In this document: positions 6,642 to 21,134 of the stretch, one piece after another
How the letters are laid out: every line of letters begins with the position of its first letter
How positions within the stretch are numbered: the stretch's first letter is position 1
Source: Bacteroidota bacterium
Lineage (GTDB): Bacteria > Bacteroidota > Bacteroidia > UKL13-3
Direction: 5' to 3'
Assembly (NCBI GenBank): GCA_027491355.1
Contig: JAIXWI010000038.1
Span: 1-64,000, forward strand
Length of the DNA stretch: 64,000 bases
Position numbers and translations under genes: made by a program
Notes under the pieces: model-generated
The model's database searches: none
What the model saw: only the letters and a program-made list of their open reading frames with translations
Told to the model about the DNA's origin: nothing

Positions 6642-9600
6642 TTATTGTCCAATTAAGATAGGTTTCATACAAACCTTGTTTTGAAATTGAATTCTCAAAT
6701 AGTACATACCCAATAAGCCATTTGTATGTATTTGAGCTTGCATATTCTCTATTTGTAATTGTATTGGTACCAATGCCCCTGATTGGTCAAACAAAGTTAC
6801 ATTGAGAATATTTGATTCTATACTTTTAACTGTAACTATCCCATTATTACTAGGATTAGGATAAATCATAATTTTATTCAAATCTTCAAACTCATAAATA
6901 CCAGTAATTGCGAGTTTCTTGAGACCAATTCTTCTATTTTCAGAATAGCTTAAAAATTGTCTGTACTGATCTGATACATTCCAATTGACAAAGACAGAAT
7001 CGTTTGAGGCAGTATTACCCAAATAAAGGTCATATAACTGATTATTTGATAGTGCAAAACGCGTTTGTGAATTTTGCATTTTGTAAGAAATTGTGTCTAG
7101 TAGGTTTTCTGAAATTAAATGCAATTGCTGAACTGCAAATGGATTTGGGTTACTCCATTCAAAAACCAAAGAATCGGTTTGGTTTATCAAATCAGGGGCC
7201 AAATTCAATTGTAAATAAGGAGCAGGTTTGATGATTGCTATTGAATCAAAAATGAGCAATCTGATGAAACTGCCATTTATATCATTCATTGCTTTTAGAG
7301 TGTCATTGTATTCATTTTTACTGAATAAAGCATAAACTTCAACATCAATATTTAAAGTATCACCTCTGTCTAAAGGGTAGTTACTTAAAATATCTGCAAT
7401 TGAAATGTGATACTTTAATTCATTTCCGGCATTTACTTGTTCATATTTGGTGTCATTCAAGCTAACTGATACCACGTATCCAGTTGCATAATCAGAAGCG
7501 GTCCACTTCAATTCAATTGTACCAGTATCATTTGGATTTACAAACATTTTAAAGCCATTCGTTGGATTTAAGATTGAAAAATCACCTAAAATTTTATCAG
7601 CTCTCAAAAGATTCACTTGAATGAAATCTGAAATTTTCAGAGAATTTCCTTGATTGTTAGATGCTATAATATTAAATGTTAATAAAACAGAATCGCCAAA
7701 TTGAACGCCAATGATTTGGGCTAATGAATCTAGAAAAATTGAACTGAGTGTTAAAGCTGTGTCTGATGTATTCACAGTATACAAATGTGTAGAAGCGTTT
7801 GCTTGCAAAACTGAAGTATCAATACTCAAAGCATAGGTATTGGCGTAATTAGATTTTGTCCAACTTATGTTTAAAGCATTTCCCATTTTTCTATTGGCCT
7901 CAAATTTTGTGAGAGATGGATTGATGAATGTAAATTTTTCAGGAATCAAAGGTGATTTTAAATACAAATTCAGAGTTTGAATAGATGGCAATGAATCGTT
8001 TAAGTTTTTGTAAGACCAAAGAGTTAAATAAATAGCAATGGAATCGCCTTTTTTGAGTTTTACTTCATCAGCAAACTGTTTCAATAAACTATAATTTATT
8101 TGATAGGATGTATCTAAATTTGGAAGTGAATACTTTGATAATGCTGATTGTTCAATATTAGCTGTTGTATCAATTGCAATTGCATAAAAGTCAGCGCCAG
8201 ATGAACTTGTCCAGGTCAGGTTCAATGCACTAAAATTTATTGAATCTAAAGCAATCGTCTTGTTATTCAATTGAGTATCTAATGAAAAAGGGTTCAACCC
8301 GATTATTTCATTGTTATTAAAATTGACTTGATTCAACCTTAAATCACCAGTCAATTTTACTATTGCAATTTTTGATTCTGTAAGTTGAGATGCAACAATG
8401 CCGCCTTGATTGGTAGTTAAATTCAGACCATTGTTGTTATTAGTAAGCAATAAAAGTGTTGAATCGTTTTGTAAATGAATACTTGAAACTTGATTAAAAT
8501 CAGTAGGTAATCCATTCTTAATTAAGTCTAAATAATTAGACTTTGTTGCAGGTATGATCTGATTTGTAGCCAATCCAATTTCATTCAGCAGAAGTTCAAC
8601 AGGGCCATTATTTCCATTGTAATTATATATTTTGTTTACGACCGGAGTTGCATTCTTAATAGATAGCTTGCTGATTCTTTTTATTTGTTGAATTTGGTTT
8701 TCTGCTTGTTCATAAATTAAAAATTCTTCATTATTTAATGCAACTATGTCTTCTATTGTCCAATCTGTGGCACTTACGCCCCCCTCTGCACCAGAATTGA
8801 GTACCAAATATGTAGTCAATTCATTGTTGGATGGATTAAAAGCGATTAATCGGTGAATTCTTTCAGTATTAATAATTGAATCGAATTTTAATGGCTTTGC
8901 TGAAATGCTATAAAGTAATTGATTAGGTGTTTGAGTTAGACTCTTAAAACCAAATCCAGGGGTTGTATTTTTTAATTGTTGATCGATGCTAAAATTAGCA
9001 TCTTCTTCGAACGGACTGACTCTTTTGACAATCTTGTAATTCGAATTTAAACATACAAAAGCTGAGCGCATTTCATCAATAAACCAAAAATTATTGTTAT
9101 GTACAATTAACCCGTTTGGATCATAGCCATTTTCTGAATAAGGATTGAGTTTGCTAGTTAAGCTTTGCATACAATCTGAAATGGTATCAGAAAAGAATAA
9201 TTGATTTTTATGCTTGGCCAACGATTCACTTAAATTGCCGTTTATTGATTTCCTAAAATTATAATTAATGGTACGCTCATTTAGAACAGAAAAAAAGTTG
9301 CTATCTGTATTGATATTGATTTTTAAAAGCTTTGGACTCTTACTTGATAAAGGATTTATTTTGATCGCTTTTGTGTCACAAATAATATTGTCCTGTGTAA
9401 TTTCTGAACCTTTACCTGTAAGTAAATAAAATTCATCTTTATTGCCAGTACTGATAATTGATTGGTAGTTCCCTTCAACAATTGTATTCCCATTTAAACT
9501 TGAAAGTATTTGTAACTTTTTAGGTGATATAATTTTAGGTATTGGATGTGCTCTCAATTGAACCAAATCAAACCTGTAATTGCCTGATGTGGCATATGCC

Positions 9601-10193
9601 GAAGTTGTTCCAACATAGCTGCTCCCATTAGGAGAAAACGTAGATACTATTTTTAGTGCAAATAAAGGATTGTTATTTACGCCTGCTACAGAAGAGAAAT
9701 CAGCAGTTCTAAAAATATAAGTATTATTTACCAGTGACCTGTATAAACTATTTGTAGTATCAGTTCCCGGTCCTGTATACTGCATCCAATTCACCCCATC
9801 TATTGTATAGAGTAATTTTACAAATCTGCTTGATGTTGCTGAGTGTCTTTGATACCAAGAAAAAAACAAGTTACAATGGCCTGTGGTACTCATCCTGAAA
9901 ATAATACCTGCAGTATCTCTTCTAGTACCATTAATTGGAAAAGTTGCCAATTGTATAGCAGAATTATCCCCAATACTAGAGGAATCATTTACTACTCCCT
10001 CGCCGTATGTATTGATAACAGCGTCTAATTGAATGGAGCCATTTCCAGTTTGCGAAATTCTTGTTCCGGTTGAAACAGCAGCGTCTGGAACCCTAATTGA
10101 ATCTCTGGTATTGAAAGACCATCTGTAAAGAGTAACTTGTGTGTAACCTATAAAAGGCAACAAACATAATAGTATCAATGTTAACTTTTTCAT
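6642..10193 (-). CDS. Large secreted protein with SusE/FnIII-like repeats and T9SS type A sorting domain
   Basis: 1183 residues. The signal peptide (1-18, MKKLTLILLCLLPFIGYTQ) is followed by a beta jelly-roll-like region (about 20-215) and a long region rich in asparagine and serine that may be propeller-like (about 230-630). Three beta-sandwich repeats of about 118 residues begin near 655, 775 and 895. Each has a conserved W-T-x-S-x-A-x-x-Y-x-x-x-I/V-D core (NLTWTSSSGADFYAIAID, NISWTKSNYANTYALSID, ELKWTASDYATGYVVSV), like SusE or fibronectin III modules. The last 75 residues, starting at IYPNPSNNG, match the T9SS type A C-terminal sorting domain, so it is expected on the cell surface or released. 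No catalytic motif was recognised. A binding or adhesin role is inference. Confidence 0.85.
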   Translation of the reverse strand: MKKLTLILLCLLPFIGYTQVTLYRWSFNTRDSIRVPDAAVSTGTRISQTGNGSIQLDAVINTYGEGVVNDSSSIGDNSAIQLATFPINGTRRDTAGIIFRMSTTGHCNLFFSWYQRHSATSSRFVKLLYTIDGVNWMQYTGPGTDTTNSLYRSLVNNTYIFRTADFSSVAGVNNNPLFALKIVSTFSPNGSSYVGTTSAYATSGNYRFDLVQLRAHPIPKIISPKKLQILSSLNGNTIVEGNYQSIISTGNKDEFYLLTGKGSEITQDNIICDTKAIKINPLSSKSPKLLKININTDSNFFSVLNERTINYNFRKSINGNLSESLAKHKNQLFFSDTISDCMQSLTSKLNPYSENGYDPNGLIVHNNNFWFIDEMRSAFVCLNSNYKIVKRVSPFEEDANFSIDQQLKNTTPGFGFKSLTQTPNQLLYSISAKPLKFDSIINTERIHRLIAFNPSNNELTTYLVLNSGAEGGVSATDWTIEDIVALNNEEFLIYEQAENQIQQIKRISKLSIKNATPVVNKIYNYNGNNGPVELLLNEIGLATNQIIPATKSNYLDLIKNGLPTDFNQVSSIHLQNDSTLLLLTNNNNGLNLTTNQGGIVASQLTESKIAIVKLTGDLRLNQVNFNNNEIIGLNPFSLDTQLNNKTIALDSINFSALNLTWTSSSGADFYAIAIDTTANIEQSALSKYSLPNLDTSYQINYSLLKQFADEVKLKKGDSIAIYLTLWSYKNLNDSLPSIQTLNLYLKSPLIPEKFTFINPSLTKFEANRKMGNALNISWTKSNYANTYALSIDTSVLQANASTHLYTVNTSDTALTLSSIFLDSLAQIIGVQFGDSVLLTFNIIASNNQGNSLKISDFIQVNLLRADKILGDFSILNPTNGFKMFVNPNDTGTIELKWTASDYATGYVVSVSLNDTKYEQVNAGNELKYHISIADILSNYPLDRGDTLNIDVEVYALFSKNEYNDTLKAMNDINGSFIRLLIFDSIAIIKPAPYLQLNLAPDLINQTDSLVFEWSNPNPFAVQQLHLISENLLDTISYKMQNSQTRFALSNNQLYDLYLGNTASNDSVFVNWNVSDQYRQFLSYSENRRIGLKKLAITGIYEFEDLNKIMIYPNPSNNGIVTVKSIESNILNVTLFDQSGALVPIQLQIENMQAQIHTNGLLGMYYLRIQFQNKVCMKPILIGQ

Positions 10194-10312: not shown

Positions 10313-12034
10313 TTAAGGTTTTGTTACACCTATAAATAAGGTATTGTTATTATCAATCATGATAAAATCATTTCCATCAACAAATCCATCTCCATTTGCA
10401 TCTGTAACTAAATAACCAGAAGCAAAATTGGTATTGTCATTGTCTACATCTATAAAGTCATTCCCATCAACAAATCCATCTTGGTTGATATCTCCACCAT
10501 ATATTGCAAATACATCATCCTCTACCATTACTTGATTGTCACCATAAGCACTTTCGGCTGAAATAGTAAAATCATATGACTTAGAAGCAGCATTCATATG
10601 TACAGGATTTGCACTCCATGTTTCAATTGAATTTCTGTGTTTAACAACCACATAATATTGATTGTTGTACATTGTTCTTGGTAAAGTCATAGAGGTTAAA
10701 CCTGTAATTGACAATGTTGGACTTAATGTTAATTCAACCTCATTGGTTAAAGAATTCACAAAATCAACAGAAATTAAATCTGCATCATTTTCAGTATAAT
10801 TAGATACAGCTGAATTAAACAATGCAGGTGTCATGGTTCTATTGCTAGTAAATATACCTTGTAACAATACACTCAAATCAAATTTAATGGTAGCCGGACT
10901 ATTAGATAGCTGATTCAAATGACTGCTTTGATTTGTAATATCTGACTGCAATTGACTCGCTGAATTGTAGGCAAATATTTTAGTAGGATACGCTTGATTT
11001 GAGGTTGAAAAATTCCAATTAATGCTAGGAACCCCTACAAATTTTTTATTATTAACCAGCCTGATTGTTGCAATTAAAGTACCATCTCCAGTTGTAGCTA
11101 AAACTTTACCATTTGCATAGCCACCAGTTGGAGATTTTGGAGTTAATCTGATATAATTGGGCGATACCAATTCCCAATAAGTTCTACCTGAACCTGAATT
11201 TACAGCAACTGGAGTTTGACCTGAAGTAGTCAATTCACTTGACGAAATAAATACAGTTACATTACCTCCGTTTCTGAAGTTGTTAGAGACTGAAAAACCA
11301 CCTTGAAACTGAGACATGATGATAGGGAAATTATTGATATTTGGATTGGTATTTTTGATATAAACCTTGAACTCATATATGGAATCACTGATGAAAGTAT
11401 CTTGTACCATTTTAGCGATATAAGAAAACCTAGAAACTACAACTGATTGATTCAAGTGAGCACTTTGGTTAGTGATATCAATTTGCTGAGAAGTAGCAGC
11501 ATTGTAAGCAAAAATCTTTGTAGGATAAGCTTGATTTGCTGCACTGAAATTCCATGCTAAATTTGGTGTACCAGAAAAGTTGTTGGTATTAGTTAACCTA
11601 AATCTTGCAACTCTAGTTCCAAAACCAGTGCCAGAAATAACTGTACCATTGGCTAAAATTTTAGGCGTAATCCTGATATAATTTGGATCTGTTAATTCCC
11701 AAAAAGCTCTACCTGAACCAGAATTGGTTGGAGTGGGAATTTGTCCTGCTAACAAACCAGAACTACCTGAAACTACTGAAACATTGATGGTACCACTGTT
11801 TCTAAAAGCAGCAGATAAACTAAAGCCTGCTTGGAATTGAGATAAAACAAATGGAGTAGAACTGGTATTTGTACTTGTATTTTTTAAGTAAATATCAAAT
11901 TCATACACATTGGCAGCTACAAGAGAGTCATTCATAATGACACACTGATATGCTGTTGGAAGTTGAGCATTTGCAGTAAGAACTGCAAATGCTACAATCA
12001 CCAATAATTTAATTTTTAAAATAATGTTTTTCAT
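10313..12034 (-). CDS. Exported protein with two cohesin-like domains and C-terminal EF-hand (dockerin-like) module
   Basis: 573 residues. The signal peptide (about 1-23) is followed by two copies of one beta-sandwich domain at about 24-199 and 200-375. Each contains YEFDIYLKNT/YEFKVYIKNT, SQFQAGFSLS/SQFQGGFSVS, NYIRITPK/NYIRLTPK and QAYPTKIFAYN. The overall pattern resembles cohesin or a related carbohydrate-binding fold; the fold assignment is inference. Residues about 380-505 carry a module shared with the next gene upstream (HRNSIETWSANPV). The end has two calcium-loop motifs, DINQDGFVDGNDF and DANGDGFVDGNDF, typical of dockerin type I repeats. It closes with IGVTKP, without a recognisable T9SS type A domain. 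It lies 27 bp after the 1111-residue gene, probably in one transcript. Confidence 0.8.
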   Translation of the reverse strand: MKNIILKIKLLVIVAFAVLTANAQLPTAYQCVIMNDSLVAANVYEFDIYLKNTSTNTSSTPFVLSQFQAGFSLSAAFRNSGTINVSVVSGSSGLLAGQIPTPTNSGSGRAFWELTDPNYIRITPKILANGTVISGTGFGTRVARFRLTNTNNFSGTPNLAWNFSAANQAYPTKIFAYNAATSQQIDITNQSAHLNQSVVVSRFSYIAKMVQDTFISDSIYEFKVYIKNTNPNINNFPIIMSQFQGGFSVSNNFRNGGNVTVFISSSELTTSGQTPVAVNSGSGRTYWELVSPNYIRLTPKSPTGGYANGKVLATTGDGTLIATIRLVNNKKFVGVPSINWNFSTSNQAYPTKIFAYNSASQLQSDITNQSSHLNQLSNSPATIKFDLSVLLQGIFTSNRTMTPALFNSAVSNYTENDADLISVDFVNSLTNEVELTLSPTLSITGLTSMTLPRTMYNNQYYVVVKHRNSIETWSANPVHMNAASKSYDFTISAESAYGDNQVMVEDDVFAIYGGDINQDGFVDGNDFIDVDNDNTNFASGYLVTDANGDGFVDGNDFIMIDNNNTLFIGVTKP

Positions 12035-12061
12035 TTTACACTGTGTTAAACAGTTTCTTTA

Positions 12062-15000
12062 TTAGAATGGTCTAATAATTTGAATAATGTTTGCAACATT
12101 GTTGTCTACAACTGATAAATCTGAGTTGTCTACAATTCCATCATAATTAATATCTGAAGGAATGTAACCAATAACCGTTTGGTTGTTGCTACAATCAGCT
12201 AAATCAGATGCATCACACAAACCGTCTTTGTTAACATCACCACTAAAAATCAAGGTAACATTACCTGCCGTTTTTGCATTTTCACCATATACATTTGATG
12301 TACCGCAAGCATAACAAATGTCTGTGGCAGGCGTTGCAAATGTATTTCTAATAGCTACTGGCTTAGCACTCCAAGTTTCAATACTGTTTCTTCCTGAAAT
12401 TGCAACGTAAAATGATTTACCCAATTCAGAACTCGGTACATTTACATTACCCACACCATTTGAATCTAAAACAGTTCTGTAAGACTGAACCAACTCAAAA
12501 GGAGAAGTGGTAGTGTACAATCTGATTGTTACCGAATCTGGAACTTGTTTGCCAGTTGATGCATTGTATGTGCCCTCAACAAATGCTTTTACGCTTAAAA
12601 CAGCATTTGCAACTGGAACATATGTAGAATTGGTATAATCGTTGTTAATTGGATCAAAACTAGACCAACCAGCAGTCCAATCTGTAGCACCAAATGCACC
12701 TCTATAGTTAACAGGGGTAATGTTTGGATTGTTACTTAACTTACTAGAGCTTGTAAAACTGAACTTAGACCATTGCGCTGCACCAGATGGTGGTAATAAT
12801 TTTGCTACCGGATTATTGATATCTAAGCCCGTTAGGCCAACTTGTGAAAGTGTAACCGTATCGTTGTTTCTAGCACTGAACCATGAGCGAAGGTTAGCAA
12901 TAGTAGCAAACACTCCAGAACCAATTCTAAATGGAGCATTGGTAGAATTGTTTGCTGTCATATGTGCCATTACATTGTTTCTAAATTCTGAAGAATCACC
13001 ATTTTGGCTACCAGCAACTTCTGTTCCATCTATGAACAAACCTACTCCCCAACCTGCAAATACAGAGTTAAAAATACTCATTTGAGAACCTCTACGAATA
13101 CGAGCGCCTTTACCACCATCACCATTTATTAAACCATTGTATCCAGTTGCTAAAGTTCCATTGAAAGCAGCTCTAGGACCAATCGAGGTTACATTTGAGA
13201 AAATAGCTCTTGTTCTTGGATTTGTATAGAATGAAGAGAATACACCATTTGCAGGAGCATCATTGTTATCAGACTCAAAACCTTCTGAAGTAGAAACTGA
13301 AGGGTTATCAGCAATTTGTGGATCGCGGATTGCCAAGGCAAATTGTACTGTACCCGAATACCCATTGTCTGTATCAAAATCATCATCTAAAGTTTTGTAA
13401 ACAATCAAATTTTTACAATTAACTGTTCCACCAAACCACTCAAATCCGTCATCACCACAATATGAAACCTGAACGTTTTCAACAGTTGTACCACTACCCA
13501 CACCTGCCAAAGTTAAACCATTGGTTTCGTTGTTTGAAGCAAATGCAATACCCGAGAATTCGATACGTACAAATCTGAAAATACCAGAGTTGTCATCACT
13601 CACGTTACCACCAAATAAACCAGCAGCTCCAAATAAACCACCTTCTACTTGACCATAACCAACTGGAAAGTTAACTGGAGCTCTACCACAAATAATTACA
13701 CCACCCCAATCACCTGCTGATCTTGAACCTGCAGCTTGGTCTGAGGTAAACACAATAGGTCTGTTCGCTGTACCCTCTGCAATAATTTTAGCACCTCTTC
13801 TGATAATTAAGATAGCTTTATTGCTAGCATTTTTTACACCCTGAATGATTGTACCAGGTTGAATGGTCAAAGTATAACCACTGTCAATGTTTACTTGGCC
13901 AGATATTTTCCAAATTTTATCGTTAGTCCAAGTTGTATTGGTTGAAATGGTTCCACTTACAACTTGAGCAGTAGGTTGGTAAGTAACTGTATAATCAGCA
14001 TTGATAGGATTCCAGTTGGTCCAACCTTGAGTCCAATCTGTTGAACCGAAAGCACCTCTGTAAGAAACAGGAGTAAAGAATGAGTTAGTCAATTTTGAGG
14101 ATGTAAAACTTGCACCCGTTAATTGCCTAGAACCAGAAGCAGGGATTAATTTAGCCATAGGATTGCTGATATCAAGACCTGTCAAACCTAAGTTAGCTAA
14201 AGTTGTAGTATCGTTGTTTCTAGAGGCAAACCAAGAACGAATATTTGAAATGGTAGCAAACACTCCAGAACCAATTCTAAATGGAGCATTGGTTGAATTG
14301 TTCGCTGTCATATGCGCCATTACATTGTTTCTAAATTCTGCTGAATCACTGTTTTGTCCTGTTGCAGATTCTGTTCCATCAACAAATAAACCTACTCCCC
14401 AACCTGCAAATACAGAGTTCATAATACTCATTTGAGAACCTCTTCTAATACGTGCACCTTTGCCTCCATCACCATTTGTCAAACCATTATATCCAGAAGC
14501 TAAAACTCCAGTGTAAGCAGCTCTTGGACCTATAGATGTAATGTTCGAAAAAGTAGCTCTAGTTCTTGGACTTGTGTAAAACGATGAGAACACTCCATTG
14601 GCAGGAGCATCATTGTTATCTGATTCAAAACCTTCAGAAGTAGAAATTGAAGGGTTATCTGCAATAAGTGGATCACGAACAGATAATCCAAACTGAACAT
14701 TTCCAGAGTAACCATTATCTGTGTCAAAGTCATCATCCAATGTACGGTAAACAACTAAATATTTACAATTTACAGTTCCTCCAAACCACTCAATACCATC
14801 ATCACCGCAGTAAGACACTTGAATGTTTTCAATTGTTGTTCCATTTCCAACTCCAGCCAATGTTAAGCCATTGGTCTCGTTGTTAGATGCAAAAGCAATA
14901 CCTGAAAATTCGATACGTACAAATCTAAGTACACCTGAATTGTCATCACTCACATTGCCACCAAACAAACCTGCAGTTCCAAATAAACCTCCTTCAACTT

Positions 15001-15397
15001 GTCCAAATCCAACAGGGAAATTTACCGGAGCTCTTCCACATATTATAACACCGCCCCAGTCTCCTGCTGACCTTGAACCAGCTGGTTGGTCTGATGTAAA
15101 AACAATAGGTTGACTTGGATTTCCGTTAGCAATGATTTTTGCACCTCTTTTAACAATCAAAACAGCTTTATTTGAGCTATTTTTAATTCCTTTGATGATA
15201 GTACCAGGCTCAATTGTAAGTGCATAACCACTGTCAATATTAACCTGACCACTGATCAAATAAATCGAATCATTGTAAAGCGTTCGATTTTGATAATTCC
15301 CAGCATTCAATGTGCTAGTTGGAGCCTGCGCATAAGCTGAACCTCCCAGGGTTAAGCCAATTAAAGCGAGCAGAAAGAATCGTAGATTCATTTTCAT
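12062..15397 (-). CDS. Exported beta-helix-like protein with internal 450-residue duplication and EF-hand C-terminus
   Basis: 1111 residues. The signal peptide (about 1-24, ending AYAQ) is followed by two very similar units at about 37-485 and 486-930. Each has SGQVNIDSGY, IVFTSDQ, AGDWGGVIICGRAP, VQVSYCGDDG and RRGSQMSI. Repeated short beta strands and asparagine ladders suggest a parallel beta-helix, as in surface adhesins or polysaccharide-binding proteins. Residues about 935-1040 match the SIETWSAKPV module of the gene downstream. The end has EF-hand-like loops GDVNKDGLCDASD and DINYDGIVDNSD and closes IIQIIRPF. No hydrolase signature was recognised. A promoter lies just upstream at 15426-15453, so this is probably the first gene of the transcript. 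Confidence 0.8.
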   Translation of the reverse strand: MKMNLRFFLLALIGLTLGGSAYAQAPTSTLNAGNYQNRTLYNDSIYLISGQVNIDSGYALTIEPGTIIKGIKNSSNKAVLIVKRGAKIIANGNPSQPIVFTSDQPAGSRSAGDWGGVIICGRAPVNFPVGFGQVEGGLFGTAGLFGGNVSDDNSGVLRFVRIEFSGIAFASNNETNGLTLAGVGNGTTIENIQVSYCGDDGIEWFGGTVNCKYLVVYRTLDDDFDTDNGYSGNVQFGLSVRDPLIADNPSISTSEGFESDNNDAPANGVFSSFYTSPRTRATFSNITSIGPRAAYTGVLASGYNGLTNGDGGKGARIRRGSQMSIMNSVFAGWGVGLFVDGTESATGQNSDSAEFRNNVMAHMTANNSTNAPFRIGSGVFATISNIRSWFASRNNDTTTLANLGLTGLDISNPMAKLIPASGSRQLTGASFTSSKLTNSFFTPVSYRGAFGSTDWTQGWTNWNPINADYTVTYQPTAQVVSGTISTNTTWTNDKIWKISGQVNIDSGYTLTIQPGTIIQGVKNASNKAILIIRRGAKIIAEGTANRPIVFTSDQAAGSRSAGDWGGVIICGRAPVNFPVGYGQVEGGLFGAAGLFGGNVSDDNSGIFRFVRIEFSGIAFASNNETNGLTLAGVGSGTTVENVQVSYCGDDGFEWFGGTVNCKNLIVYKTLDDDFDTDNGYSGTVQFALAIRDPQIADNPSVSTSEGFESDNNDAPANGVFSSFYTNPRTRAIFSNVTSIGPRAAFNGTLATGYNGLINGDGGKGARIRRGSQMSIFNSVFAGWGVGLFIDGTEVAGSQNGDSSEFRNNVMAHMTANNSTNAPFRIGSGVFATIANLRSWFSARNNDTVTLSQVGLTGLDINNPVAKLLPPSGAAQWSKFSFTSSSKLSNNPNITPVNYRGAFGATDWTAGWSSFDPINNDYTNSTYVPVANAVLSVKAFVEGTYNASTGKQVPDSVTIRLYTTTSPFELVQSYRTVLDSNGVGNVNVPSSELGKSFYVAISGRNSIETWSAKPVAIRNTFATPATDICYACGTSNVYGENAKTAGNVTLIFSGDVNKDGLCDASDLADCSNNQTVIGYIPSDINYDGIVDNSDLSVVDNNVANIIQIIRPF
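12610..13950 (-). repeat. Second copy of internal gene duplication
   Basis: This stretch codes for residues about 486-930 of the 1111-residue protein. It matches 13960-15300 at nucleotide level over long runs, at an offset of about 1.35 kb. An example is the AACACTCCAGAACCAATTCT segment near 12909 and again near 14257. Boundaries are approximate. Confidence 0.75.
13960..15300 (-). repeat. First copy of internal gene duplication
   Basis: This stretch codes for residues about 37-485 of the 1111-residue protein and is the partner of 12610-13950. The DNA similarity, including silent positions, suggests a fairly recent duplication or continuing gene conversion between copies. Boundaries are approximate. 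Confidence 0.75.
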
Positions 15398-15425
15398 AAT
15401 ATATTGTTGTTAGATAATTTTTGCT

Positions 15426-15453
15426 CAAAAATATATGCTGAAATAGAATCCAA
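15426..15453 (-). promoter_or_regulatory. Promoter of the EF-hand surface protein operon
   Basis: On the minus strand TTGG (450-453 of the 15-kb line) is followed after 16 bases by TATTTTTG (15426-15433), a TAnnTTTG match. The start codon lies 29 bases further on, at 15397. Spacing is slightly short. Confidence 0.5.
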
Positions 15454-15591
15454 TCTTATTCATATGTTACATTATAGTTAAGCCCGAAATATTAAAGATT
15501 GCTTTAAAATTTAGTTGCTTTTTTTTAATGATAGCTTAACAAGGAGCGGTGCTGGTAAAAATAAATTTGTAAAAAAAATAAACCAGTTTGT

Positions 15592-17526
15592 ATGAAGTAC
15601 TATGCGTTACTATTTGCTTTAACCATCACTTTTGTATTTAAAGCCAAAGCTCAAAATCCTGACTACTTAATTTCTATAAGCAATGAAAAATTGAGTGCAC
15701 CTAACGTACTTGAATTTGATTTACATATTAAGTCATTAGGGAACACTCCTTTAGAATATGCTTCATTTCAAGCAGGAATAAATGTATCACCAAAATTTAT
15801 TAATGGAGGAACATTATCTATTGATACCGTAAGTGGAAGCTCTGAATTTAATGTTACAAAGCAGGCTCCAGTAATTAACAAACCAGGTTCTTCATGGGAT
15901 GCTGCTAATAACCGAATTAGAATAATAGCTCAACAACCTCCAGGAGCAGGAAATGGCAAAATTATCAGTCAAAATGGAAATGGTAACAGAATAGCAAGAT
16001 TTAAAATAACCAACTCTGTAAACTTCGACACGTTACTACCAAATCTGGGTTTTAATTTTGGCGCTGCTATTACTTGGACAACTAGAATTTATGCTTATGT
16101 AAATGGTGTATCAACTGAAATTACAGATCAAACTAAAATTGTTAGTAATACAACAAGCATTGTGCTTCAAGAGCCTTTGAACATAGGAAATTCATTTAAA
16201 ATAAATGATGTTCAAACCAATAGCATTCAATTGCAATTGAATGAAAAACAAAATGCGCAAAACGTCATAGTACTTATTAATAAATATCAAACACCTAATT
16301 ATTCACTTAGTGATGGCGAACTATTTAATGTAAGTCAATCTTACAAAGATGCTCAAATTTTAGGTGATAGCAGCAGAGTAGTTTATGAGGGCTCATCAGC
16401 AGGAACAATTGATATTGCAGGTCTTGAAGAGAATAAAAAATATTACTTTGCTGCCTATTTATTCAATGGTATAGATGCTAGTAAAAACATTTTAACAACA
16501 AACTACTTTAAATTGGATACCTCAACCAAGATAAGTACTGTTAACAATCCAAAAATTAATTCTATTTTCCCTTTAACTGGTAATATTTCAGACACCATTT
16601 TAGTAAAAGGAAGTAAATTATTCCCTTATGATTCTGTTTACTTTGGTAAAACTAAAATTAATGTAATTGAACATTTTGGAGATTCAATATTAAGTATAAG
16701 CATTCCAGAAGGAGAATTAAGTAATTTAATTAAGGTTTATACTACATATGGATCAGCTAATTCACCTTCGTATTTTACAATTTTACCAAGTATCAAATTT
16801 ATAGCGTCAAACCCTTTAGAAATTGGTCAAAATGTGACTGTAGATGGTTTAAATTTTGAAGGATTAGATTCGTTGTTAATTGGCAATGTAGCACAAGATA
16901 TTGTTGAATCAAATGACCGTTCAATTACATTTAAATTGAGCTACTACAACATGGACGAAATTGTAAAAATTTATTGTAAAAATGGTTTCGTTGCTTCTAC
17001 ACAAAAAATCAGGTTCAAACCAACAATTTTTGATGTTACCCCAAAGATTGGAACAACCAAAGATCCAATTCAAATAAAAGGGAGAAACTTGTACAACGTT
17101 GATAGCGTAATGATCGGCAATGTAAAAGCTAACATTACTGCAGTATATCCTGACTCTTTGATCTCAATTACTATTCCAAGTATGGCTGTTAAATCCGTAA
17201 TAACTGTATACACACAAAACGGAATAGCTGTAAGCATTGACTCATTGAATGTAATTTCAAGTATTGCTAAAATCAAACAATCAAATCAAATATTAAGCTA
17301 CTTTGATATCAATAACACCCTAAATATCATTTCAAAGGATAAAAATACTTTTATTCAGCAAGTAATCATTTACGATTTAAAAGGGCAATTGATACATCAA
17401 TCAAAAGAAGATTTGATTGGTTTTACTGAATTGGCAATAACTCATGAAGATTTTGAAAAAAATAATTTCATTGTTTTAATCATTAAAACTTCAAAAGGAA
17501 CTTCTGTTAAAAAATTAGTTAAATGA
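15592..17526 (+). CDS. Secreted protein: cohesin-like domain, three IPT/TIG domains, T9SS sorting domain
   Basis: 644 residues. A signal peptide (1-20, ending FKAKAQ) is followed by one copy (about 22-185) of the same beta-sandwich domain found twice in the minus-strand gene at 10313. Shared features are LEFDLHIKS, ASFQAGINVS, NRIRIIAQ and RIYAYVNG followed by ITDQ. A fibronectin-like stretch (about 195-315) follows, then three IPT/TIG domains starting near 321, 400 and 478 (IFPLTGNISDTILVKGSKL, VTPKIGTTKDPIQIKGRNL). The last 70 residues (IYDLKGQLIHQSK to VKKLVK) fit a T9SS type A sorting domain. It overlaps the TonB-dependent receptor gene by four bases (ATGA), so the two are co-translated and probably work together at the outer membrane. 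The ligand is unknown. Confidence 0.8.
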   Translation: MKYYALLFALTITFVFKAKAQNPDYLISISNEKLSAPNVLEFDLHIKSLGNTPLEYASFQAGINVSPKFINGGTLSIDTVSGSSEFNVTKQAPVINKPGSSWDAANNRIRIIAQQPPGAGNGKIISQNGNGNRIARFKITNSVNFDTLLPNLGFNFGAAITWTTRIYAYVNGVSTEITDQTKIVSNTTSIVLQEPLNIGNSFKINDVQTNSIQLQLNEKQNAQNVIVLINKYQTPNYSLSDGELFNVSQSYKDAQILGDSSRVVYEGSSAGTIDIAGLEENKKYYFAAYLFNGIDASKNILTTNYFKLDTSTKISTVNNPKINSIFPLTGNISDTILVKGSKLFPYDSVYFGKTKINVIEHFGDSILSISIPEGELSNLIKVYTTYGSANSPSYFTILPSIKFIASNPLEIGQNVTVDGLNFEGLDSLLIGNVAQDIVESNDRSITFKLSYYNMDEIVKIYCKNGFVASTQKIRFKPTIFDVTPKIGTTKDPIQIKGRNLYNVDSVMIGNVKANITAVYPDSLISITIPSMAVKSVITVYTQNGIAVSIDSLNVISSIAKIKQSNQILSYFDINNTLNIISKDKNTFIQQVIIYDLKGQLIHQSKEDLIGFTELAITHEDFEKNNFIVLIIKTSKGTSVKKLVK

Positions 17527-20372
17527 AGCCATTGATTCGTAAGCTAAGATTTGCTTTTGTATGCATCATCTTTACACTTATTGCCACCCAATCACTTGCC
17601 CAAACAACGAGTTTGAGTGGTAAAATTGTTGACCAAAAAAATGGAGAAGAATTAATCGGAGCAACTGTCAGAATTGCCAATACCTCTATGGGAGCAGCTG
17701 CAGATGTGAACGGACAATACCTTATAAAAAATATTCCTCCAGGTACATATACTATTGAAATATCGTTGGTCGGCTATGTTTCCAAAAGTCTTAAAAACAT
17801 CATCATAGCTGCTGGAGAATCAAAAGTAATCAGTATTGAATTGCAACCCTCAACCAAAGAATTACAAGAATTTGTTACAACTGCTAAAATTGACAGACAA
17901 ACTTCAGGAGGTTTATTGATCCAACAAAAAAATCTTTCAAGCATCTCTGATGGTATTTCATCTGAAACAATTAAAAGATCTCCTGATAAAACCACAGGTG
18001 ATGCTTTAAAAAGAGTGAGTGGTGTAACAGTGCAAGACAATCGCTTTGTAGTGGTGAGAGGTTTAGCTGACCGTTATAATATTGCTTTAATTAATGGAGT
18101 TGATTTACCTACTACTGAGCCTGATAAAAAAGCTTTTTCTTTTGACATCATCCCTTCAGCTCTAATTGACAATATGGTTATTTATAAAACAGCTTCCCCT
18201 GAATTAAGAGCAGACTTTGGAGGTGGGGCTGTTTATGTTACCACCAAAGATATTCCTGAAAGAAAAATTTTCAATTTAAACATAAGCACTCAATACAATA
18301 CTTATACTACATTTAAACCATATGTAGATTACCAAGGAGGAAAATTAGATTTTCTTGGTATTGATGATGGAACCAGAGCATTGCCTAAATCTTTGGCAAG
18401 CTCTAAGGAGTTTGGCAGTGCAAGTATTAATGAAGAGGTTAGAAACTCTAAAATGCTTGGAAATGATTGGGGGGTAAACAATCTAACCTCTCAAATTCCA
18501 GGTTATGGCATTCAGGCCATTTATGGGAATAACTTTAAATTTTTGAACAAAGAATGGGGAGTAATCGCTTCATTTTCTACAAGTTCAACACCTAAAACTT
18601 ATAATAATAATATTTTTACTTATGGTGGAGGTGGTGCTACAAATGATACCATCAAATGGTTCAGTTTAGAAGACAACAGTTATGAAAAAAATCACTTAAC
18701 AGGTATTCTTTTCAACACCTCTGTAAAATTGAATAACAACCATAAAGTATCCTTGAAAAACTTAGCCAATATAAACGGAGAAGATGTTGTTATCAATCGT
18801 TTTGGATACCAAAATGAAAACGGTATTTTTAATTTTGAAAAAGGTTTTGCCAGACAATTCACAAGCAATATTTTTTACAGTGGTCAAGCCAAATACGAAG
18901 GCTACATACCCAGTATCAAATTAAAAATCAATGGAACAATTGGTATCAACAATACCAGCAGAGATATGCCTGGTCAAAAAAGATTGCTGTACAATTCATC
19001 ACTCAATGAATTTGATTCTGTATTTAAAGTGGCCTTTCCAGCCGGTTCACCAAACCCAATGTTATCTGGTATGACCTATACTTACCTTAAAGAAAAAGGA
19101 AACATCAATGCGTTGGATTTAACAAGAACTTTTAAATGGGGTAAATTTAAACCTACTTTCAAAACAGGTTTTTACCAATCTAACAAAGAAAGGACTTTTA
19201 ATGCGCGTGTATTTGGTTGGAGAATGAGTACTAATGTATTCTTAAATCCTAGTTTACTAGAACTAAAACCAGGCGAAATATTTGCAGATTCGAACATTAC
19301 CAAAGACCGTTTTAGAATGAATGAAATTACAAGTAATACTGATAACTATACTGCAGCTTCAAGATTAAACGCTGCTTACTTTAGTGTTGACCATTACTTG
19401 TTCACAAGATTACGTTTGAACTATGGTATCAGGTATGAGAGTTTCAATCAAAAATTAAGCGCTTTTGATCCTTATGTAGCAAGAGACACAACATACGACA
19501 ATACCTACAATAATTTCTTTCCAATTGTAAACCTAACTTACAACATTACTGAGAAAATTAACTTTAGAACATCTTATTCAAAAACAGTGGTAAGACCTGA
19601 ATTTAGAGAAATTGCTCCTTTTACCTATTACGATTACGTGAACAATACCATCACCTATGGTAAAAGTAATTTAAAACCCATTCAAATCAATAATTTAGAT
19701 TTAAGATTTGAAATATACCCTACTGGTGGCCAGGTATTCACATTCACTTATTTCCATAAAACTTTTGAAAATGCTATTGAAAATACCTTTGATTACGGAG
19801 CAGGAAACAGAACAAGAACATTCAATAACATTAAAAGTGTAGAATGTTCTGGTTATGAATTAGAGTTCAGATTGAACCCTGGTATCGTATTCAATGCGCC
19901 ACAAAACGCTATTTCAAGGTATTTTACATTTAGTTTAAACTCGTCTATCATCAATTCAAAAGTTGATTTATCTAATTTGGCAGGTTTGGCAGGAAGTGAT
20001 AACTTCAGACCTCTTCAAGGACAATCTGGTTATTCTGTGAATGCCGGTGTTCTGATTATGCCTCCTAGCGGAAAATGGAACATGAACTTATTGTACAATA
20101 GAATTGGAAGAAGAATGGCATTAGAAGGTGGAAGAGCTGAATTACATATTTGGGAAGTTCCAAGAGATTTGATTGACATTCAATTCAGCTACCAATTAAA
20201 TAAATATGTTACAGTTAAAGCCATTGTGAGCGATATTCTAAACCAATACTACCGTTTTTACAGAGACACTGATTTAGATGGTAAATATACGCCTAACTCT
20301 GCTGATGTGATTACAAATCAATGCCGTTACGGCAGTAACTACAGTTTGTCATTGGCAATTAATTTATTCTAA
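17523..20372 (+). CDS. TonB-dependent outer-membrane receptor
   Basis: 949 residues. The signal peptide (about 1-26, ending SLAQ) is followed by a carboxypeptidase-regulatory-like beta-sandwich (about 30-110, LSGKIVDQKNGEELIGATV). The plug domain (about 135-240) has DALKRVSGVTVQDNRFVVVRG and RYNIALINGVDLPTTEPD. A long beta-barrel follows, ending in SLSLAINLF with a terminal aromatic residue, as expected for Bam-inserted barrels. It lacks the SusC features that go with an adjacent SusD lipoprotein, and no SusD is coded nearby. The partner is the T9SS/IPT protein coded immediately upstream with a 4-base overlap. Substrate is unknown; it might be a glycan, a peptide or a metal chelate. Confidence 0.92.
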   Translation: MKPLIRKLRFAFVCIIFTLIATQSLAQTTSLSGKIVDQKNGEELIGATVRIANTSMGAAADVNGQYLIKNIPPGTYTIEISLVGYVSKSLKNIIIAAGESKVISIELQPSTKELQEFVTTAKIDRQTSGGLLIQQKNLSSISDGISSETIKRSPDKTTGDALKRVSGVTVQDNRFVVVRGLADRYNIALINGVDLPTTEPDKKAFSFDIIPSALIDNMVIYKTASPELRADFGGGAVYVTTKDIPERKIFNLNISTQYNTYTTFKPYVDYQGGKLDFLGIDDGTRALPKSLASSKEFGSASINEEVRNSKMLGNDWGVNNLTSQIPGYGIQAIYGNNFKFLNKEWGVIASFSTSSTPKTYNNNIFTYGGGGATNDTIKWFSLEDNSYEKNHLTGILFNTSVKLNNNHKVSLKNLANINGEDVVINRFGYQNENGIFNFEKGFARQFTSNIFYSGQAKYEGYIPSIKLKINGTIGINNTSRDMPGQKRLLYNSSLNEFDSVFKVAFPAGSPNPMLSGMTYTYLKEKGNINALDLTRTFKWGKFKPTFKTGFYQSNKERTFNARVFGWRMSTNVFLNPSLLELKPGEIFADSNITKDRFRMNEITSNTDNYTAASRLNAAYFSVDHYLFTRLRLNYGIRYESFNQKLSAFDPYVARDTTYDNTYNNFFPIVNLTYNITEKINFRTSYSKTVVRPEFREIAPFTYYDYVNNTITYGKSNLKPIQINNLDLRFEIYPTGGQVFTFTYFHKTFENAIENTFDYGAGNRTRTFNNIKSVECSGYELEFRLNPGIVFNAPQNAISRYFTFSLNSSIINSKVDLSNLAGLAGSDNFRPLQGQSGYSVNAGVLIMPPSGKWNMNLLYNRIGRRMALEGGRAELHIWEVPRDLIDIQFSYQLNKYVTVKAIVSDILNQYYRFYRDTDLDGKYTPNSADVITNQCRYGSNYSLSLAINLF

Positions 20373-20422: not shown

Positions 20423-20745
20423 ACATTTTCTTGCAAAAAAGAACCTGAAAGCGTTTAGAATCATCTATCCACAAAGTCAAGTACAGTGGTCTTTAAAATA
20501 CTGTGGTAATATTGTTTGTCAATGATTGAGAAATACTAATTGCCATTCAAACATGGTTGTATTAGATCATCTTTTAGCCAAACCAAATATTTGCTCATGA
20601 TTTAAACTGAACTAACTACATTAATCTCCTTTTGCTAACTATAAAATAAGTACTTTACTTTCAATTAAAAACAAGCTTAAAATAAAACCTTAGAGCCTGT
20701 CAATTAGGCTTTTATTGCAATGAATGAACAGCATTTTGAATGCAT
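20423..20745. other. Non-coding stretch with no recognised feature
   Basis: About 320 bases between the receptor terminator and the terminator of the small Cys/Lys-rich gene. Both flanking genes end here (convergent arrangement). No credible reading frame, RNA gene or repeat was recognised. Confidence 0.6.
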
Positions 20746-20772
20746 AAAAAAAGCCACCCTTTGAGGTGGCTT
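20746..20772 (-). terminator. Terminator after the Cys/Lys-rich gene
   Basis: AAGCCACC (20751-20758) pairs with GGTGGCTT (20765-20772). Read on the minus strand it runs into a T-tract (20746-20752). Confidence 0.7.
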
Positions 20773-20795
20773 TTGTGAAATACTTTAGCTGTAGA

Positions 20796-21134
20796 TTACT
20801 TTTTTTCTTCTGATTTCTCAGGTGCACTTTTTTCACTTTTGTTTGCACAACAAGCTTTCTTTTCTGACGATTTGCAAGATTTTTCTTCTTTCTTGTCTGC
20901 ACAGGCTTTGTCATCTTTTTTACTTTGACAAGACTTATCTTCTTTTTTGTCTTTGCAACATTTGTCATCTTTTTTGCTTTGACAAGACTTTTCTTCTTTC
21001 TTATCACAATGTGTTTTTGCAGGCTTATCAGTAGCAACAGAAGTTTCAGTTACTGTTGTAGTTGTTGTTGTTTGTGCATTAACGCCGATTACCATGAATG
21101 CAACGAATGCTGAGGCTAAAATTAATTTTTTCAT
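20796..21134 (-). CDS. Small exported Cys/Lys-rich repeat protein
   Basis: 112 residues. The signal peptide MKKLILASAFVAFMVIGVNAQ is followed by a Thr-rich linker and a highly charged tail. In the tail a short unit, KSCQSKKDDK and variants (KEEKSCQSKKDDK, KEDKSCQSKKDDK), recurs three or four times. The mature part has nine cysteines, including two CC pairs, and one histidine. This composition would allow metal binding or disulfide cross-linking in the periplasm or on the surface, but that is inference; no named family was recognised. Short direct repeats at DNA level follow the protein repeats. It is a single gene with its own terminator. Confidence 0.75.
   Translation of the reverse strand: MKKLILASAFVAFMVIGVNAQTTTTTTVTETSVATDKPAKTHCDKKEEKSCQSKKDDKCCKDKKEDKSCQSKKDDKACADKKEEKSCKSSEKKACCANKSEKSAPEKSEEKK

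Follow-up and report, generated by a model that had tools for sequence, protein, structure and literature searches.

Gene content of the locus

The window, i.e., the whole 64,000-nt stretch of DNA that was analysed, belongs to the genome of an uncultured Bacteroidota bacterium, of 2.44 Mb in 44 contigs. Its minus-strand gene at 6642..10193 encodes protein A (1183 aa), a secreted protein with a type A sorting domain of the type IX secretion system (T9SS; TIGR04183, 33.6 bits), which is encoded next to protein B in three congeneric genomes and not in genome G346 (synteny; L108, L109). Protein B (10313..12034, minus strand; 573 aa) comprises a signal peptide, two cohesin-like domains of what we term class 2 (domain 1, 11435..11965; domain 2, 10901..11434) and a class-1 unit of X-module plus dockerin (XDoc; 10316..10900) that ends in ..TKP at the stop codon. 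The two calcium loops of this unit, DINQDGFVDGND (10457..10492) and DANGDGFVDGND (10367..10402), have the dyads GN/GN.

Protein C, encoded next on the same strand (12062..15397; 1111 aa), consists of a signal peptide, two beta-helix repeats and a class-2 XDoc. The repeats (13901..15340 and 12596..13906) are 81% identical to each other, a feature of the body of C that the first-pass annotation of this DNA had not mentioned. The XDoc of C (12068..12625) ends in ..IIRPF; its loops, DVNKDGLCDASD (12203..12238) and DINYDGIVDNSD (12119..12154), carry the dyads AS/NS and are spaced by 28 residues, not 30. A divergent intergenic region of 194 bases (15398..15591) separates C from the plus-strand gene for protein D. 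A promoter scan of this region gave matches at chance level only; candidate TAnnTTTG-like sequences, resembling Bacteroidota -7 boxes, lie at 15427-15434 upstream of C (minus strand) and at 15562-15569 upstream of D (plus strand).

Protein D (15592..17526, plus strand; 644 aa) has a signal peptide, one class-2 cohesin-like domain (15646..16167), IPT/TIG domains and a C-terminus resembling a T9SS sorting domain (17251..17523). The first-pass annotation had assigned D a T9SS domain outright. Its C-terminus scores under every curated cut-off (16.5 bits vs 40 for type C, 15 bits vs 23 for type A), with the G323 orthologue reaching 30.3, and we regard a T9SS domain in D as probable; the clear type A tail of the neighbourhood is that of protein A, not D. 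Protein E (17523..20372, plus strand; 949 aa) is a TonB-dependent receptor with carboxypeptidase-regulatory and plug domains, and its start at 17523 overlaps the end of D at 17526 by 4 bases. Past the receptor gene, the minus strand contains short, repetitive, lysine/cysteine-rich open reading frames (20690-21134), of which the one at 20796-21134 begins with a signal peptide.

Predicted folds of the repeated domain and the C-terminal unit

The cohesin-like domain, ~175 aa long, occurs at residues 24-200 and 201-378 of B and at residues 19-192 of D. Relative to the first copy in B, identity is 52% for the second copy and 40% for that in D, and local alignment scores of the three lie 22-61 standard deviations above shuffles, which bears out the earlier claim that one beta-sandwich domain is present twice in B and once in D. 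Structure prediction of this domain against cohesins had been named beforehand as a check, and the outcome was cohesin-like: in the AF2 model (31 relatives aligned; pLDDT 79.6, pTM 0.81), each of the five top Foldseek matches in the PDB was a cohesin (E 1.0e-3 to 1.8e-3, probability 0.99-1.0). Ten of the 12 best PDB matches (probability 0.97-1.0) were cohesins, the other two being the endoglucanase CelQ, and the best cohesin matches came from Ruminococcus, Pseudobacteroides and Acetivibrio. These E values are modest, at about 1e-3, with TM-scores of 0.41-0.52 and CBM2/CBM3 folds close behind. On the strength of the model, the repeated domain is predicted to adopt the beta-sandwich (jelly-roll) fold of cohesins.

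Pfam and NCBIfam returned no family for B and TIG domains for D, leaving the cohesin-like domain unrecognised, and the cohesin family PF00963 had no match in B or D, nor was it among the families listed for 25 cohesin-like proteins. A search of PDB sequences with a profile of the domain yielded no cohesin and nothing relevant, and the grounds for the assignment are thus its fold, its partners and its context. Cohesin-like proteins have one such domain each (two in B), nearly always placed after the signal peptide. Recognised PF00963 cohesins are present in only 5 of the 64 genomes of the order; at G000:C5:14256-16619 (L304:5575-15444), two secreted proteins of 1445 and 1835 aa carry them together with T9SS signals, and TIGR04183 matches are present at G000:C5.

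At their C-termini, B and C share a 195-aa module (34% identity, z=30), and both end in two DxNxDGxxDxxD calcium loops, confirming the EF-hand, dockerin-like ends already reported for two of the proteins. The module N-terminal of the EF hands forms a single unit with the loops, a point absent from that report. AF2 modelled the unit with high scores (51 relatives; pLDDT 96.5, pTM 0.92), and its best fold match was the type II X-dockerin 2b59_B (E 2.5e-4; TM 0.63 by target length), spanning both X-module and dockerin, followed by 4fl4_I. 2b59_B is the X-dockerin of a type II cohesin-dockerin complex and 4fl4_I that of a ternary scaffoldin complex. As modelled, the EF-hand end is predicted to be an X-module packed before a dockerin.

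An alignment profile of the loops matched dockerins among the PDB sequences from E 3.9e-7. Plain phmmer of B against the same sequences returned dockerins only, at E 0.3-0.8, so that the alignment profile was needed; the single-sequence match of C to Pfam Dockerin_1 was weak (13.6 bits vs a cut-off of 22.9), and Pfam and NCBIfam miss the XDoc module. The loops are spaced by 30 or 28 residues in 42/42 XDocs, with a helix after each loop in the model (149-160 and 180-190), and the last profile residue is proline in all 42. Within the order, the XDoc runs up to the stop codon or ends a single residue before it; in proteins from named metagenome-assembled genomes (MAGs), it ends no more than four residues from the stop in 118 of 124 cases. 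The 14 XDoc proteins scanned contain fn3, PKD, nucleotidase and BNR domains and beta-strand repeats, many of them carrying fn3, PKD or Ig-like domains, and none belongs to a cellulase or xylanase family.

Genomic distribution, sorting signals and loop dyads

The genomes compared are mostly metagenome-assembled. Within the order, XDoc and cohesin-like domain are found in the same 11 of 64 genomes and in none of the others; the window genome alone has seven XDocs and five cohesin-like domains. The 11 genomes represent four genera, and identical sets would be expected from random placement with a chance of 1.3e-12. In genera g142 and g148, where presence is patchy (2/19 and 3/10), the sets coincide as well (chance of 4.9e-5 with these two genera only). 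SprA, the T9SS pore, is encoded in 64/64 genomes of the order and in 31/31 XDoc genomes outside it. Its universal presence in the order rules out that the co-occurrence merely tracks T9SS, and the pairing of XDoc and cohesin-like domain is therefore no by-product of that system. Part of the co-occurrence may reflect transfer of both genes as one cassette.

At nine loci (L101-L107, L112, L114), a cohesin gene directly follows an XDoc gene on the same strand. Outside the order, such a gene lies directly behind one XDoc gene, or behind a series of three or four, in G172, G236, G268 and G295; at L149 and L154 (G236, G295), three or four XDoc genes in a row precede one cohesin-like gene of ~1245 aa. 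Most XDocs of XDoc-rich genomes are not beside a cohesin gene (9/110 are), and the comparison of this figure with 6/597 at dockerin-picked loci is biased by locus choice and is not our main evidence.

Of 297 genomes spread across the phylum, 32 have XDoc-like ends, the window genome counted. The cohesin-like profile matched in eight genomes of this sample, six of them with XDoc, the weak matches without XDoc being in G148 and G228; it had no match in 26 of the 32 XDoc genomes. Distant XDoc genes are often followed by one for a secreted protein of 270-440 aa with an N-terminus that matches the cohesin-like profile (probability of 93.6% and 95.2% for two groups, vs 0.06% for control T9SS proteins), while some neighbours are not cohesin-like. 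We rejected the explanation that these matches reflect the signal peptide only, as the alignments begin past it and the controls reach just the 0.06% given above. Between the two groups themselves, the match is weak and mostly confined to the signal peptide, which makes the extension to distant neighbours less certain; for some genomes this profile-profile comparison, a weaker kind of argument, is the sole one for a cohesin partner. In distant Bacteroidota families (L142, L152, L161-L165, L167, L168), the XDoc gene is followed by one for a ~440-aa protein that ends in ..ELSRA..K.QLLR and has no T9SS signal, often with an OmpA-like gene (..NRRVEI..) next; this protein is possibly another means of anchoring a cohesin-like partner.

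Sorting signals are distributed unequally between the two kinds of protein: TIGR04183 matches 15 of 25 cohesin-like proteins vs 0 of 14 XDoc proteins. The beta-helix body of C recurs in 56/64 genomes of the order, typically encoded by the gene after an E-like TonB receptor, and in 20/20 homologues scanned from other genomes, all beside TonB receptors, a T9SS type A domain (TIGR04183) stands in place of the XDoc. In the lineage of the window (G000, G322, G323, G346), this body bears the XDoc, and the cohesin gene D precedes the receptor. A second swap is found in a PF00963 cohesin protein family, which has an XDoc in G347 (L312, 765 aa) and a T9SS-like end in G000 (L304), G322 (L314) and G315 (L315). 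At L284-L303, a TonB receptor and a duplicated beta-helix T9SS protein form a gene pair conserved in the order.

In cellulosomal dockerins, loop positions 10-11 help decide the partner. Contacts at position 11 have been described, and dual binding in clostridial dockerins is supported by two-fold internal symmetry (PMC5429695). Among class-1 XDocs, 34 of 38 have the same dyad at positions 10-11 of both loops (shuffle maximum 18). The dyad is fixed per genome: the window genome and two congeners have GN, G346/G347 have FN, G297/G307 have FS, G321 has FL and G331 has SG. In a further 98 XDocs from 34 named MAGs, the loop-1 dyad is common to 46% of within-genome pairs vs 3% of pairs between genomes (shuffle maximum 13%). 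Indeed, in its loop part, the B XDoc of G346 shares up to 77% identity with other XDocs of that genome vs 41-42% with orthologous B, and a clade of B XDocs was rejected (AU p 1.2e-6), so that the XDoc of B follows its genome and not its orthologues. A receptor shared by the XDocs of one genome and specific to it predicts just such a genome-fixed dyad repeated in both loops; recent duplication may account for part of the sharing within genomes.

Trees split the cohesin-like domains into a B/D class (class 2) and a generic class, the latter borne mainly by T9SS proteins, and the XDocs into a generic class that includes B (class 1) and a C class (class 2) with a spacing of 28 and the asymmetric dyads AS/NS. 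Class-2 XDocs are found only in genomes with class-2 cohesins, which is the ground for the wiring proposed below, from C to B and D.

A candidate docking system and its alternatives

We propose, with a probability of about three in four, that a cohesin-dockerin system docks proteins without a T9SS tag onto T9SS-exported anchors. Secreted proteins without a T9SS signal would end in an X-module and a calcium-stabilised dockerin, the N-terminal cohesin-like domain of an anchor protein would bind this dockerin and hold the XDoc protein at the cell surface, and the C-terminal T9SS domain of the anchor would carry the anchor across and fix it to the outer membrane. Both the physical binding of XDoc to cohesin-like domain and the surface location of the docked proteins are what we infer from the patterns above. 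Judged by sequence, these patterns suggest that many Bacteroidota species may use the same docking for proteins without the usual type IX export tag.

The first-pass annotation had envisaged a cohesin/dockerin-like surface system linked to a TonB receptor. Its core is supported by the predicted cohesin fold, the predicted X-dockerin, co-occurrence and adjacency; the system looks like one of surface anchoring and not like a scaffold of repeated cohesins, since most cohesin-like proteins have one cohesin. The 4-base overlap of D and E stands, and a TonB link is retained because the family of C normally adjoins a TonB receptor and bears a T9SS tail; the system itself extends across entire genomes and numerous Bacteroidota families and is no feature of a single TonB locus.

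Two readings would do without this docking. The X-dockerin end could itself be a T9SS export signal, i.e., a further kind of C-terminal domain (CTD) that the translocon would recognise directly, with the cohesin-like domain as an unrelated fellow traveller. Its exactly C-terminal position and final proline, its replacement of a T9SS CTD in two families and its being found only in genomes with SprA all speak for such a role, yet a plain export signal needs neither an X-dockerin fold nor a genome-specific dyad repeated across two loops, nor would it have to occur in exactly the same genomes as a cohesin-fold protein and next to it, and we hold this reading to be improbable. Alternatively, the EF-hand end might be no more than a cap stabilised by calcium, and the beta-sandwich might serve adhesion in general, with both part of one family of large surface adhesins. 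Calcium loops and beta-sandwiches are common in bacterial adhesins, fn3, PKD and Ig-like domains are present in many XDoc proteins, and the Foldseek matches of the beta-sandwich include CBMs. A cap, however, leaves unexplained both the genome-specific residues at loop positions 10-11 and the all-or-none co-occurrence of two domains on different proteins, which makes this reading very improbable in our estimation.

As to how the docking would be wired, class-1 XDocs, borne by six proteins with GN in both loops, would find their partners in T9SS type A cohesin proteins encoded outside this locus, and the class-2 XDoc of C would pair with the cohesins of B and D. Protein B, probably an adaptor scaffoldin with its two class-2 cohesins and one class-1 dockerin, would dock to an anchor that bears a generic cohesin. 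D would keep C, the beta-helix protein, beside receptor E, which C would thus reach by docking where its homologues are attached via their own T9SS signal, and C and E may form an uptake pair. Taken alone, this assignment of class 1 and class 2 seems to us an even bet. In a variant of docking that need not exclude it, the B/D cohesins would bind class-1 dockerins and C would dock elsewhere, e.g., to the PF00963 cohesins at G000:C5. Six of the seven dockerins of the window genome are indeed generic, and of the five genomes with a C-type body, four have PF00963 cohesins (G000, G322, G323, G347); but the class-2 XDoc lies at one locus with class-2 cohesins, the two are present in the same genomes, and G346 has both without a PF00963 match. 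We regard this variant as possible, if doubtful.

If the pairing is true, a cohesin-dockerin system of this phylum has escaped Pfam and NCBIfam, and both location and partner could be predicted for many large surface proteins in which no sorting signal is recognised. A study of rumen Bacteroidetes identified no cohesins or dockerins, consistent with other Bacteroidetes genomes (PMC5831590). The pairing would also raise the question by which route proteins that exchanged their CTD for an X-dockerin reach the surface: docked to a T9SS carrier, by direct recognition, or through other export. The boldest version, in which XDoc proteins would cross the outer membrane through the SprA pore docked to a T9SS-tagged cohesin partner, with the codes choosing the carrier and the phylum gaining a second surface route, strikes us as rather unlikely. 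The literature searched contained neither a described T9SS-cohesin system in Bacteroidota nor piggyback T9SS export.

A cellulosome is rejected, as there are no fitting enzymes among the scanned proteins and no cohesin array (one per protein, two in B). That cohesin and dockerin modules exist outside cellulosomes is the subject of a 2009 paper, taken here as cited in PMC8542988, which shares that idea with the present proposal. With T9SS type A/C sorting domains (TIGR04183, NF033708), the XDoc has in common that a C-terminal module would take a surface protein to the outer membrane, and the two are interchangeable among homologues; the XDoc fold differs, however, with CTD matches in 0/14 proteins. 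The TonB receptor and beta-helix T9SS gene pairs of the order are homologous to C (about 45-49% identity) and E (33-37%), whereas here C has an XDoc for the CTD, is divergent to E, and the cohesin gene D lies before E.

The closest report concerns a putative cellulosome-like complex of Candidatus Stygibacter of the Cloacimonadota, with a predicted scaffoldin that combines cohesins and a T9SS C-terminal domain, and enzymes with C-terminal dockerins (PMC8542988). In that complex, cohesins and dockerins are recognised by InterPro, and the scaffoldin, of 3,755 aa, combines such modules in tandem with CBMs; here, in contrast, the families are unrecognised, there are one or two cohesins, the cargo is mostly surface proteins and the evidence includes a genome-wide recognition code. 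The type II cohesin/X-dockerin pair of Clostridium thermocellum (the XDoc of CipA; PDB 2b59, 4fl4) resembles the present one in its C-terminal X-module plus dockerin with two calcium loops and, as proposed here, in devoting an X-dockerin to the cohesin of an anchoring protein, and the predicted folds match. Identity over the X-dockerin is 14%, the proposed anchor here would be a T9SS-exported outer-membrane protein rather than an S-layer protein, and the cargo is not cellulolytic, with mostly one cohesin per protein.
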